Part shown: positions 6,784 through 11,652 of the stretch, piece by piece
How positions within the stretch are numbered: the first letter of the stretch is position 1
Layout of the letters: each line of letters starts with the position of its first letter
From: Deltaproteobacteria bacterium RIFOXYA12_FULL_61_11
Lineage (GTDB): Bacteria > Bdellovibrionota_F > JAHFAK01 > YA12-FULL-61-11
Direction of reading: 5' to 3'
Length of the DNA: 12,594 bases
NCBI GenBank assembly: GCA_001799195.1
Contig: MGSU01000096.1
Span: forward strand, 1-12,594
Notes under the pieces: generated by a model
What the model saw: only the letters and a program-made list of their open reading frames with translations
The model's database searches: none
Told to the model about the DNA's origin: nothing
Position numbers and translations under genes: made by a program

Positions 6784-7642
6784 TGTCGTCCTCTCTTCGA
6801 CCGCGCACCCGGCGCAGAAGGTCATAGGCTTGGTTCCCGGTTAGACCGAAAAACTCGGCGACGACCTTGGCCTGGTCGCGTGGCCCGAGCTTTCCGCTCC
6901 GATCGAGGGCTGCGAACAATCGTCGCGCCGCTTCTTCGTCCACTCCATCCGGGGATTCGCTGACCGGCCCGAGGTAGAAGGCCAGGGTATACTCGCCCTG
7001 GATCCGCTCCCGCAGGCGCAATCCGGCGCACAGGTCGGCCGGGGTGCCGAGGAGCAACTCTTCGTGGAGCTTGGTCAACTCCTTGAGCAGCAGCGTTTGC
7101 ACCGGACCGAAGGTCTTTTCCAGCCAGACCAGGGTGCTCAGGAGACGGTGCGGTGCTTCGTAGAGCACCACGACCGCCTCGCGCCTCCGCAGCCAGGCCG
7201 TCAGCTCTTCGTTCCTTCGCTCCCGCTCGTCCAGAAAACCCAAGAAGATACCCGGGCAACCCGGCCGTCCTAGAATAGAGAGGGCCACGGCTTGGGCCGA
7301 TGGTCCCGGCACCACGGCCACCGGCAGCCCCCGTTCCAAGGCGGCGCGGACCACGGCTGATCCGGGATCGCTGATACCGGGTGTGCCGGCATCGCTGACT
7401 AGGGCAACGGATTTGCCCTCTTCCAAGAGGGCCAAGACCCTGGCCGAGGCCCTGCGTTCGTTGTGTTGGTGCAAAGCGAGCATCGGGGTACGCAGGCCCT
7501 TGGCCGAGAGCAGTTTGGCGGTGTGGCGGGTGTCCTCCGCGGCGATGAGATCGACGGTGCCGAGCACCTGTTCGGCCCGGACCGAGAGATCGCCGAGATT
7601 CCCGATCGGCGTGGCCACGAGGTACAGCGTCTTAGAGTTCAA
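6776..7642 (-). CDS. rsmI: 16S rRNA (cytidine(1402)-2'-O)-methyltransferase RsmI
   Basis: RsmI uses S-adenosylmethionine to methylate the 2'-O of C1402 in the decoding centre of 16S rRNA. Seen from the proposed TTG start (288 residues, the usual length): LYLVATPIGNLGD (6-18); AAEDTRHT (34-41); LVSDAGTPGISDPG (81-94); VPGPSA (111-116); LYEAPHR (160-166); and a C-terminal helical tail KLGPRDQAKVVAEFFGL (251-267), all diagnostic of the family. No ATG gives a proper N-terminus. The TTG at 7642 has GAGG 6 nt upstream and overlaps the stop of the preceding barrel gene as TTGA (4 nt), so it is the likely start. A longer frame reaching 7759 would lie inside that gene. The 3' end overlaps rluD by 8 nt. 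Confidence 0.94.
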   Translation of the reverse strand: MNSKTLYLVATPIGNLGDLSVRAEQVLGTVDLIAAEDTRHTAKLLSAKGLRTPMLALHQHNERRASARVLALLEEGKSVALVSDAGTPGISDPGSAVVRAALERGLPVAVVPGPSAQAVALSILGRPGCPGIFLGFLDERERRNEELTAWLRRREAVVVLYEAPHRLLSTLVWLEKTFGPVQTLLLKELTKLHEELLLGTPADLCAGLRLRERIQGEYTLAFYLGPVSESPDGVDEEAARRLFAALDRSGKLGPRDQAKVVAEFFGLTGNQAYDLLRRVRGRREDDNG

Positions 7643-8727
7643 TAGATCCCTCGTAGACCGAGGTGCAGGAGTTGCCGGTTGAACGCGAGTTCCATGTCCG
7701 ACAGTTCGTTCGAATACCTGCGGTACTGTATCTCGAGGGCAAGATACCGGTTCAGCCATCGGGAGAGGGCGAGGGCGAAGACGTTGAAATTTTCCTCCTC
7801 GCTGCTCGTGCGCAGGATCCGCACCCCTTCTTGCTCGATATAATAGGCAACGTTGTCGCTGTAAGCGCGGAGCAACGCGGAACCGGAGAGAATCATGGTG
7901 AGACCGAGCGGCAAGGACGTACTCCAGCGGGCGGACAGCACGAGAGAGCGGCTGTCGAGTTGGGGAATATTGGAATCACTGTGCCTGAGCAGGAGATCGA
8001 ATACCAAGATGGACGAAGCGTGGAAGGAGGCATTGAGGCCGAGTTCGTGGATGAGGTCGAGCCGACGGTCGAAACCGATCTGACGTTCGAGGAAATTCCG
8101 GTGGGCGAGATGATACTGGAGACCGAGGAGCCAGGCCCTGCCGATTCCTTGTTCGAGGCGTCCCCCGCCCCGGAGGAGCCGGAAGCTGTATAGTCCTTCA
8201 TCCTGGAACCTGAACTGCTCGAGGTGGAGGTCGAGGGTCTGTATGGGCACCGAACCGAACAAGGAGGGGAGCGGGAGCAACGAACGCTCCTCGAGGTATT
8301 GGGTGAGTTGGTCGAAATCCTCGTCGCCCGCCCTCTCCAACTTGCAGCGCCCCACGCTGCGAGAGGCGAGATCGAAGGGACCTACGGGGGCGGTCAAGCC
8401 GAGCTCGGCCACACCGATTACATTGTCTTTGGAACGTTCGGTGAGGAACTGTTTGGCGCCGAGTTGCACCCCGCCCTGCGCTTGACCGTGCTCCGAGGAG
8501 TACAAGAGGTGCCTCCCGATGAGCGAGCCTCGAACGAGCCAGTCGTCGATGACTCCGTCCTGACCCATCTGTTTGTAGATATTGGTATCGTATCCAAGAT
8601 CCAGCTTTCCCGCGAGGCTTCCTTGCCGCGGCTCTGAGTTCTCGGCACACGACTCGGATATCGGCTCCAGGAGCAGGACGAGGAGCAGAACCGGTGCAAA
8701 GAGGTGCAACCGGGCCGAGGACGACAT
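7639..8727 (-). CDS. Predicted outer-membrane beta-barrel protein, unknown function
   Basis: The 362-residue product begins MSSSARLHLFAPVLLLVLLL, a clear signal peptide with a plausible cleavage after Ser-Cys-Ala (26-28). The mature part is made of alternating hydrophobic/polar strands (for example LAGKLDLGYDTNIY, LHLEQFRFQDEGLYSFRLL, LVLSARWSTSLPLGLTMIL) and ends LHLGLRGIY with a C-terminal aromatic residue, as in outer-membrane barrels. The early GYDTNIY resembles the DSN-type start of several barrel families, but I cannot name one. The ATG at 8727 is chosen because it begins the signal peptide; the longer frame would run back through the divergent gene's start. The ribosome binding site is weak (GGGG about 8 nt upstream). 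The gene is first of a unit with rsmI and rluD and overlaps rsmI by 4 nt. It is divergent from the 936-residue fusion gene, which suggests shared regulation. Confidence 0.75.
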   Translation of the reverse strand: MSSSARLHLFAPVLLLVLLLEPISESCAENSEPRQGSLAGKLDLGYDTNIYKQMGQDGVIDDWLVRGSLIGRHLLYSSEHGQAQGGVQLGAKQFLTERSKDNVIGVAELGLTAPVGPFDLASRSVGRCKLERAGDEDFDQLTQYLEERSLLPLPSLFGSVPIQTLDLHLEQFRFQDEGLYSFRLLRGGGRLEQGIGRAWLLGLQYHLAHRNFLERQIGFDRRLDLIHELGLNASFHASSILVFDLLLRHSDSNIPQLDSRSLVLSARWSTSLPLGLTMILSGSALLRAYSDNVAYYIEQEGVRILRTSSEEENFNVFALALSRWLNRYLALEIQYRRYSNELSDMELAFNRQLLHLGLRGIY

Positions 8728-8841: not shown

Positions 8842-11652
8842 ATGACCAAGGGCATCCTTCTTTACGGCTTTCTCCTGGTCCTCTCTCTGCCCACCGCGCC
8901 GCATGCTACCGAGGACGCCTCTCCCATGTCCTCGGGCAGACAGATCGACGTCCTGTATTTCGGAGGAGTGGACCCGAACGTCGATCTGCGCGCCTGCGAA
9001 CTCCTAGAACGGTTCCTGCGCACGCAACCGGACCTCGCGGTGCGCAAGGTCACACGGCACCTCATCCAGGCTGCCGGTGCCCGGCTCGCCGGCGGGAACG
9101 ACCTCGCGCTGTTCGGTTCAGCCCCCCGGATCACGGTCCTCGAGACCGGCACGGCCTGGTACCTCGTGCCCGGGGATGCCTCCGGTGACCTCGCTACCGC
9201 TCTGCACGACACCCTGCGGCAGTGGTCGAGCGAGCGCGAGGACGTGCGTCTGCTCGGCCAAGACGTGCTGCTCCCCTCCGACCCTGTTGGGGAGGAACCC
9301 GAGGTGCGGGGGATCGGCCGACTCGAACGCGGCACCTTTGTTCCCGGCGAGTTCTGGCAACCCTTGGTGGCCTATGGTTATCGACTTGGCTCGGGGGAGC
9401 GGGAGACCACGCTCGTCGTCGTTGCCAAGACCTTCGGCGGTTTCTCCCGGCTCGTTCCCGCGCTGCGCTCCCTCCGTGCGGGCAGTCCTTTCGCGGTGGC
9501 GGTCGGCACCGGTGCCGCTCTGCCGCAGAACGAGGCCGAACGGGCTGAAGCGCTGCGCGGTCTCTCCGGGTTGGTCGAGGCCCTGGTGCCCTCCGAGCAC
9601 CTCCTCGAACAGGCCCCTCCCGCCACCTCTGTCCCCTTTGTCGCTGCTAACATCCTGAAGGGAAAGACTCCGCTCTACCCGCCCTTGCTGGTTATCGAAC
9701 GCGACGAAGTGCGGGTCTGCGTGATCGGTTTGGCCAGAGTGGACCACCCCGAGCGCTTGCAGAACCTCGGTCTTTCGGTAGAACCCGCGACCATCAGCCT
9801 GGCCTCGCTGGAAGCGCGGGCCACCACCGAATGCACGCTCAACGTGGTCGTCTCCGAGCTCGGCGACGAGGAACATCGCGCACTTGTGGCCCGCTACCCC
9901 TGGATCGACCTGCTGGTCGGGACGCGCGTCGCGGACTCTCCGCCCTATCCCCGAGAAATTTTCAGCCAGCCGAGCGCGGAGCATCGGCTCAACCTGTCGA
10001 TCACCGGCAAGATCACTCCGGGCCGCAGCCTCGGGGTGGTCTCCTTCCGTTTCCGCGAGGCCGCGATTCCCAGCGCGATCCTGCACACCCGGCACGGTCT
10101 GGATACCGGGGTGACCGCCGAGGCAGAATTCCTGGACCTCGATCGTCGGCTCTCCACCCTGTTCTCGACGTCGGGCCGCATCCTCCTGCCCGACGTGCAC
10201 CACCTCTGGCCCGAGCACCTCTTCCTCGAGCCGGGACAACTGGCGTCGTTCTTGGGCGTGGCCATGTTCGAACGCACCCCCAGCGAGGTAGTCCTCCTGC
10301 CGGTGCCCGAGGGAGGGACGTTACCCCCCGGGGGCCTCTCCGCGGAACAATTGGCGACCTATTACCCTGCCGAGGACAAACTGGTCAGCGTCAGCATCCC
10401 CGGCAGCGAGCTCAAACGCCTGTACGACTATGTCCAGCGCGGCAATCAACATCGGCCGCGCTATTTCCTGGGTGGGCAGCAGAGTCGCACTCTGGTCACA
10501 GGGCTGCCCATCGCCGACGCGACCTACTACCACCTCCTGACCTCTTCAGCTCTGCTGGCCGAATTACGGGCGGCCTATGATCAGTTCACGCTCGAACGCC
10601 CCGAGGATCGTTTCCGGCGCGAGGGCGAGCGCTTCGTACCGGATCCCGAGGGCGATCCGGTCAGCCTGCACGAGGCCCTGACCTCGTCCCTCGCCGCAGA
10701 GGTCCCCGAGGAGACCATCCAGCGACTTGAGGAAGGCTCGACGCTGCCCGCCGACCAGGCCGTGCTCCAGCACCTGCGCGATGGTCTCAACGGCACGGCG
10801 GATTATGACCGGGTGGTCTACCTGGTCGACGTGCGCAACCTCCGGCTCGACCTGGCCGATACTTCGGTAGAGCGGCGGGAGAGTTATGCCAACGTGCGCA
10901 ACGCCCAGGTCACGGCCAATACCCAGCGCGCAATAGGCACCCTGGGCGAGGCTTACTTCCTGGTCGATCACGCCCAGGCCAGCCTCAAATTCGGCGTCTT
11001 GCTCGACTTCAGTCAGGTTCGCCTCAAGGAAACCGACGGCACGACCGTGGAGAACGAACAGCGCGACAACGGTCTGCTGACCGGGGAGGGTTTCTACAAG
11101 TGGCGGACTGTCGAGGTCTTCTCCACGGCCTATGTTCTCGGCCCCATGCTCAGCCTGCAATACGACACCGAGTTGCGGCGCAATAAAGCTACCGAGGGCC
11201 CGGCTCTTCTCCCCAGGGAACGGATCGGTCGCCTGCTCACCGGCCTGAAGCTCTATGACGGCGCACTGATTAAGAATTTCTCCGCCGGTCTGATCATGGA
11301 TTTGGATTACACCGGAGATCACGATGATCTCGAGTATGGTGTCTTCTCGCTGCTCAACCTCACCAGGGCCTTCTCTCTCCCTCGTTACAACATCCAGTAC
11401 GATCTGACTCTGGACACGCGCTGGTTTGCGCCCTCCGACCAGGACACGGACGACGACCTCGGACTGGAACTGCTCCTGCGCAATCAGTTCAAGATCCCGC
11501 TGCTCGGCTATCTCAGTTTGACCCCCATGGTCGACCTCTTTGTCTTCCGCGGCAAGCTGCCGGCCACGGAGCACCTCGGCCACAACCTGACCTTCGGCGT
11601 GGCCCTGTCGTACTCTCGGATCATCAAACCCCAGTTCGAGCGCTGGCTGTGA
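8842..11652 (+). CDS. Exported fusion: degenerate 5'-nucleotidase (UshA/SoxB-like) domains plus predicted C-terminal beta-barrel
   Basis: The 936-residue protein has a signal peptide (1-22, cleavage near PHA/TED). Residues 33-187 form an unidentified domain starting QIDVLYFGGVDPNVDL. Residues 188-408 follow the metallophosphatase order of 5'-nucleotidases: TTLVVVAKTFGGFSRL, then FVAANILKGKTPLYPPLLVI (266-285), VRVCVIGLARVD (290-301), NVVVSELGDEEH (334-345) and WIDLLVGTRVAD (354-365). The metal ligands are lost: DxHG reads KTFGG, the Asp of the second motif is Gly, SHLG reads SELG, and GGHxH reads GTRVA. Residues about 440-585 match the 5'-nucleotidase C-terminal domain (YYPAEDKLVSVSIPGSELKR; later VTGLPIADATYYHLLTSSAL). 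After a charged linker, about 700-936 alternates like barrel strands (QASLKFGVLLDFSQVRLK, LGYLSLTPMVDLFVF). The ATG has GAGAGG 7 nt upstream. Inference: a non-catalytic, perhaps ligand-binding, outer-membrane protein. Precise function is unknown. Barrel topology is less sure than the nucleotidase relationship. Confidence 0.8.
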   Translation: MTKGILLYGFLLVLSLPTAPHATEDASPMSSGRQIDVLYFGGVDPNVDLRACELLERFLRTQPDLAVRKVTRHLIQAAGARLAGGNDLALFGSAPRITVLETGTAWYLVPGDASGDLATALHDTLRQWSSEREDVRLLGQDVLLPSDPVGEEPEVRGIGRLERGTFVPGEFWQPLVAYGYRLGSGERETTLVVVAKTFGGFSRLVPALRSLRAGSPFAVAVGTGAALPQNEAERAEALRGLSGLVEALVPSEHLLEQAPPATSVPFVAANILKGKTPLYPPLLVIERDEVRVCVIGLARVDHPERLQNLGLSVEPATISLASLEARATTECTLNVVVSELGDEEHRALVARYPWIDLLVGTRVADSPPYPREIFSQPSAEHRLNLSITGKITPGRSLGVVSFRFREAAIPSAILHTRHGLDTGVTAEAEFLDLDRRLSTLFSTSGRILLPDVHHLWPEHLFLEPGQLASFLGVAMFERTPSEVVLLPVPEGGTLPPGGLSAEQLATYYPAEDKLVSVSIPGSELKRLYDYVQRGNQHRPRYFLGGQQSRTLVTGLPIADATYYHLLTSSALLAELRAAYDQFTLERPEDRFRREGERFVPDPEGDPVSLHEALTSSLAAEVPEETIQRLEEGSTLPADQAVLQHLRDGLNGTADYDRVVYLVDVRNLRLDLADTSVERRESYANVRNAQVTANTQRAIGTLGEAYFLVDHAQASLKFGVLLDFSQVRLKETDGTTVENEQRDNGLLTGEGFYKWRTVEVFSTAYVLGPMLSLQYDTELRRNKATEGPALLPRERIGRLLTGLKLYDGALIKNFSAGLIMDLDYTGDHDDLEYGVFSLLNLTRAFSLPRYNIQYDLTLDTRWFAPSDQDTDDDLGLELLLRNQFKIPLLGYLSLTPMVDLFVFRGKLPATEHLGHNLTFGVALSYSRIIKPQFERWL

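Follow-up and report, generated by a model that had tools for sequence, protein, structure and literature searches.

What does a 5'-nucleotidase fold do once its metal ligands are gone and it has been joined to an outer-membrane barrel? This question is raised by one gene in a stretch of 12,594 nucleotides (the window, meaning the whole stretch of DNA that was analysed; contig MGSU01000096.1 of Deltaproteobacteria bacterium RIFOXYA12_FULL_61_11, assembly GCA_001799195.1). An initial annotation, made from the letters of the sequence, had proposed that the gene encodes a signal peptide, the N- and C-terminal domains of a 5'-nucleotidase and a barrel-like tail (about residues 700-936) in a single frame of 936 residues. 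The frame is intact, its codon-position GC (0.70/0.44/0.80) is as in the adjacent genes, and the purine-rich stretch AGAGAGG precedes the ATG by about 8 bases. The N-terminus is hydrophobic and signal-peptide-like when judged by eye, in keeping with the proposal. Cysteines are found at positions 52, 293 and 331 only. The product, hereafter P0001, can be divided as follows.

8842..11652, + strand: whole gene, 936 aa, very probably a fusion of a pseudo-5'-nucleotidase with an outer-membrane barrel (open frame, codon GC, upstream AGAGAGG).
8842..8910, + strand: signal-peptide-like start, residues 1-23, MTKGILLYGFLLVLSLPTAPHAT (hydrophobic, sequence judged by eye; helix 2-14 in the model).
8977..9405, + strand: residues 46-188, probably inserted into the N-terminal domain (about 140 aa not present in intact or KSB1-type proteins; mostly low model confidence).
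9406..10101, + strand: metallophosphatase-like domain without metal ligands, residues ~189-420 (NF041198 match at 254-367; hhalign alignment from 261; model; structural match).
10114..10641, + strand: 5_nucleotid_C-like domain without NxGGIR and GGDGY, residues ~425-600 (hhalign alignment to 582; weak Pfam match; motif table).
10819..11625, + strand: predicted 12-strand outer-membrane barrel, residues 660-928 (model strands; PDB barrel matches; homologous barrels in L033, L059 and L058).

The best named family match of P0001 is the 'UshA-like' (seleno)protein family of NCBIfam, NF041198, which matches residues 254-367 (E 1.2e-9) with a score of 37.3 bits, below the curated cut-off of 275. Members of this family likewise have eroded metal motifs, but P0001 lacks PCGU/PCGC after motif I, and the PCGU proteins are separate in the tree. 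When P0001 was compared by hhalign with a profile built from 21 intact UshA homologues, a profile comparison of the kind that the initial annotation had suggested, the fold was detected over residues 261-582 (prob 95.7, E 9e-9). Pfam sees almost nothing in the protein beyond a weak, sub-threshold match to 5_nucleotid_C at residues 493-543 (E 0.022). Together, these matches bear out the proposed order of a 5'-nucleotidase N-terminal domain followed by its C-terminal domain. Used as a query, P0001 had no match among named genomes or plasmids, and a sequence search against solved structures gave as its best match a nucleocapsid chain (E 1.3), which was taken as chance. The AlphaFold2 model is of low-to-moderate confidence (mean pLDDT 59.4, pTM 0.49), with better values for the metallophosphatase core (mostly 64-89 over residues 201-300 and 320-360). 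A metallophosphatase fold is predicted, and residues ~90-652 of the model align with 5'-nucleotidases in VIA-align (Z 23-24.5); this structural match is not independent of the input alignment, because intact UshA rows were included there and guided the nucleotidase part.

Structure prediction of the full chain, also advised by the initial annotation, places 12 long antiparallel strands in the C-terminal third, within residues 660-928. Foldseek matches of the model include the barrels CymA, OmpG and PcoB, in a list that consists mostly of nucleotidases and says little on the exact family of the barrel. With its export signal (by eye) and a predicted C-terminal set of long antiparallel strands that is even in number, P0001 agrees with what is expected of an outer-membrane beta-barrel. 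A relative from the KSB1 phylum (L107) is modelled with higher confidence (pLDDT 85.4, pTM 0.80) as a nucleotidase fold plus 12 barrel strands, so the barrel-like tail is recovered both in P0001 and, confidently, in a relative. Altogether, an UshA-type two-domain 5'-nucleotidase fold followed by a C-terminal 12-strand barrel is, with high confidence, the architecture of P0001.

The barrel (window 10798-11649) has no direct match in Pfam, including DUF3078 (PF11276, gathering score 25 bits), yet it is homologous to two DUF3078-like barrels, L058 and L033, which score 29.0 bits (cut-off 25) and 24.1 bits with that family. These two stand alone with only a signal peptide and, because such copies exist, the barrel can be regarded as an independent outer-membrane module. 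Related DUF3078-like barrels are also fused to a different exported hydrolase-like domain in two further genomes (G685 and G687); these frames of about 1200 aa (L106 and L105, respectively) represent a second type of fusion. The relative's model also matches a DUF481 protein of a viral library structurally, and no sequence match to DUF481-type barrels was found. DUF3078 proteins in the papers found are without a nucleotidase fusion; one of them, PG1786 of Porphyromonas, is listed as a hypothetical component of the type IX secretion system (T9SS) (PMC9722745). In the open literature on DUF3078, on metallophosphoesterase pseudoenzymes with the outer membrane and on UshA with barrel domains, no such fusion was found, which agrees with the earlier remark that no described protein of this architecture was known. 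The stand-alone barrel L058 comes from a record named 'Bacteriophage sp.', unverified and derived from human faeces (MT838386.1), where it occurs with a UvrD/Rep-like helicase frame. A phage origin was considered on the strength of this record and rejected; the record is unannotated and, with its helicase frame, resembles bacterial chromosomal DNA.

Whether the nucleotidase part could still work as an enzyme depends on the residues that hold the two metal ions. The motifs were located by alignment with intact and fused relatives.

8947..8976, + strand: residues 36-45, DVLYFGGVDP, the likeliest place of the first strand and of motif I; no D-x-H (follows the signal peptide; pairs with TGNTGG of G447).
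9427..9453, + strand: KTFGGFSRL, residues 196-204, which probably corresponds to the GGLARR segment and not to motif I (aligned with relatives, both intact and fused).
9502..9516, + strand: probable motif II, residues 221-225, VGTGA in place of DxGD (alignment, motif table).
9583..9600, + strand: probable motif III, residues 248-253, LVPSEH in place of GNHEFD (motif table).
9853..9864, + strand: motif IV, residues 338-341, SELG in place of SHLG (hhalign, motif table).
9919..9933, + strand: motif V, residues 360-364, GTRVA in place of GGHxH (hhalign, motif table).

The ligands of the two metals (D-x-H, DxGD, GNHE, SHxG and GGHxH) are all replaced. The only D-x-H in the whole of P0001 is D451-H453, outside the metal motifs, and there is no HxH. 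The initial annotation had stated that all recognisable metal-ligand motifs are replaced, and the losses stand, including SHLG to SELG and GGHxH to GTRVA, which the alignments confirm. Its placement of motif I does not: the KTFGG that it read as the remnant of DxHG is probably mispaired and, as part of KTFGG-FSRL, aligns with the downstream GGLARR segment. It had not placed motifs II and III, which probably correspond to VGTGA and LVPSEH. Motif I is more likely found at residues 36-45, although the alignment given to AlphaFold2 and the resulting model put residues 96-101 there instead. No candidate placement keeps D-x-H. If motif I lies at 36-45, residues 46-188 are probably an insertion, whose counterpart in G447, at the equivalent position, is about 210 aa long. 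The substrate motifs of the C-terminal domain are lost as well (NxGGIR to PEGG, GGDGF/Y to LRAAY). On these alignments, the two-metal site has very probably been lost. Compared with secreted 5'-nucleotidases of the UshA, CD73 and SoxB type, P0001 is therefore alike in its two-domain fold, domain order and export signal, whereas it lacks the metal ligands and base-binding motifs and adds the C-terminal barrel and the probable 140-aa insertion near the N-terminus.

The same nucleotidase-barrel fusion is present in at least 13 other proteins, found by searches with P0001 and then with barrel alignments. Members of the fusion are G045, G053, G083, G128, G145, G196, G264, G328, G447, G673-G676 and L136; G672 holds a partial fusion frame running off a contig end. 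Nine of 386 broadly sampled genomes carry it, the window's genome counted, and named records come from candidate division KSB1, Thermoanaerobaculia and Polyangiaceae MAGs. Two genomes of the window's phylum were sampled, the window's own included, and the fusion gene is absent from the other. Chance or an assembly artefact was ruled out, because the architecture recurs in independent assemblies. In a tree, fused, PCGU-type and intact proteins form three groups, with the fused proteins on one side of a branch of modest support (86/57; found in 82% of bootstrap trees), so that a single origin of the fused proteins is allowed, not shown. The end branch of P0001 is very long, at about 3.8 changes per column. 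P0001 is an extreme member of a fused family that spans several phyla.

Among these relatives, the erosion of the metal site follows one general pattern. All 21 intact homologues have the same N, D and H residues in their metal motifs. The HxH of motif V is missing from every fused protein, and the histidine of motif I from all those that could be aligned. G053 retains GNHEFD, and G128 and G264 retain GNHEFS; the KSB1 type retains D, DTGD, N and the H of motif IV and, in its C-terminal domain, mostly NxGxxR and GGDGY. In G083, G447 and P0001, nearly all metal ligands are gone, and in G196 and G328 the N-terminal domain is almost absent and the barrel is still there. As read from the aligned motifs, the loss is graded yet universal in the fused family, with no member having a complete site. 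The comparison of homologues that the initial annotation had called for therefore indicates ligand losses conserved in kind, and no alternative set of ligands elsewhere in the relatives is visible. The window's genome also encodes an intact, unfused paralogue (FNDLHG, DAGD, GNHSFD, GHIH), a division of labour that counts in favour of a pseudoenzyme. A weakened metal site is not confined to the fusion, since unfused PCGU-type UshA-like proteins have eroded motifs too. Seven such PCGU/PCGC members (L008, L009, L018, L019, L023, L026 and L030) have eroded metal motifs despite nucleotidase-like names, and several of them have an in-frame TGA at the U position.

The explanation that accounts best for the whole, and that we hold with moderate confidence, is that P0001 is a pseudoenzyme anchored in the outer membrane, a non-catalytic domain tethered to a barrel. 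After export, the C-terminal 12-strand barrel would insert into the outer membrane, judging from its homologues and the predicted structure. Barrels with an even number of strands normally keep both termini on the periplasmic side; the UshA-fold domain should accordingly face this compartment rather than the outside, and would probably hang at the mouth of the barrel. Because motifs I to V have lost all metal ligands, P0001 is in all likelihood unable to use the two-metal mechanism of UshA. Tentatively, the domain may serve as a binding or scaffold module that brings a partner or ligand to the barrel, with plugging or gating of the barrel as a further possibility. For relatives in which the C-domain pocket is kept, a ligand resembling a nucleoside phosphate or sugar phosphate is plausible, and so is nucleotide binding by the KSB1 type; for P0001, an envelope protein, glycan or lipid is the more likely partner, because this pocket is eroded too. 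The central proposal of the initial annotation, an exported non-catalytic UshA-fold module fused to an outer-membrane barrel, is thus supported by the fold, the ligand losses and the 12 strands. Its further suggestion of a receptor or uptake device for nucleotides finds no support for P0001, in which NxGGIR and GGDGF/Y are lost (several relatives keep them).

Several other readings can be weighed against this anchored pseudoenzyme. It is possible, if somewhat doubtful, that the barrel is a mere anchor and the domain a structural scaffold for envelope complexes, with neither ligand nor gating. The joint loss of metal and base-binding motifs in P0001 fits this, as does the joining of the same barrel type to another hydrolase-like domain (in G685 and G687), which would be expected of a generic anchor; however, the several relatives that keep NxGxxR and GGDGY without the metals suggest selection for binding in at least that branch. 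The more specific idea of a family of pseudoenzyme receptors, in which a dead nucleotidase under a 12-strand channel would sense or carry a ligand and gate the channel, is rather doubtful. It is unlikely that the barrel acts like an autotransporter, exporting the pseudo-nucleotidase to the cell surface as an adhesin or binding protein. A helix (residues 637-649) does precede the 12 strands in the P0001 model, one of the Foldseek matches is the autotransporter AaaA (9oqa), and autotransporter-domain proteins are among the weak viral-library matches of the relative; however, P0001 has no autotransporter family match in Pfam, a passenger as large as this, with two mixed alpha/beta domains, would be unusual, and the homologous barrels of L033 and L058 occur alone with only a signal peptide, unlike autotransporter translocators.

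The very long branch of P0001 and the persistence of the barrel in G196 and G328, where the N-terminal domain is nearly gone, could also be taken to mean that the nucleotidase part is a decaying relic under little selection and that the barrel alone matters; the rapid divergence of P0001 would likewise be compatible with a loss of function. Such decay seems distinctly unlikely, given that the 936-aa frame is intact with normal codon composition, that the fold of P0001 is still detectable by profiles and that fusions of full length are maintained in different phyla. An enzyme that is still active through a rearranged site or a single metal is highly improbable, for P0001 contains no HxH, and the one D-x-H that it has (451-453) falls outside the motifs, although weak activity may be possible in some relatives, judging from the GNHEFD of G053 and the part of the ligands kept by the KSB1 type.

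To our knowledge, pseudoenzymes are well studied inside cells and have been little described within outer-membrane proteins. The 13 or more relatives with similarly eroded sites, drawn from several phyla, suggest an overlooked family of outer-membrane-anchored enzyme look-alikes. The parts of the fusion are known and their combination is new, recurrent and, as far as the searches and the open literature show, undescribed. A nucleotidase that is always incomplete is repeatedly paired with the same type of barrel, and the loss runs from nearly intact proteins (G053 and G128) to ones that can hardly be recognised (P0001, G196 and G328); this natural series lends itself to asking what role an enzyme fold has after catalysis. 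The fusion also links a domain to the DUF3078-like barrel. Annotation pipelines would probably label several of the relatives as active 5'-nucleotidases, and probably wrongly.

Gene neighbourhoods vary among the fused relatives and indicate no pathway; they were set aside as a guide to function, no neighbour being common to these relatives. In the window, a divergent gene (7642-8727, - strand) encodes a protein of some 360 aa whose N-terminus resembles a signal peptide and whose sequence is barrel-like; about 115 bases lie between its start and that of the P0001 gene. It has no match in Pfam, NCBIfam or PHROGs, and it was rejected as a homologue of the P0001 barrel, no relation being detected by hhalign (prob 0.1). 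Further upstream, a gene for a HisA-like protein of 231 aa (1409-2104, + strand; by eye) lies directly upstream of a MATE-type transporter gene and is not within any histidine cluster in the window. In G447, the fusion adjoins a frame with serine/threonine-kinase-like and caspase-like parts, as judged by eye (L104, 10303-12240, - strand).
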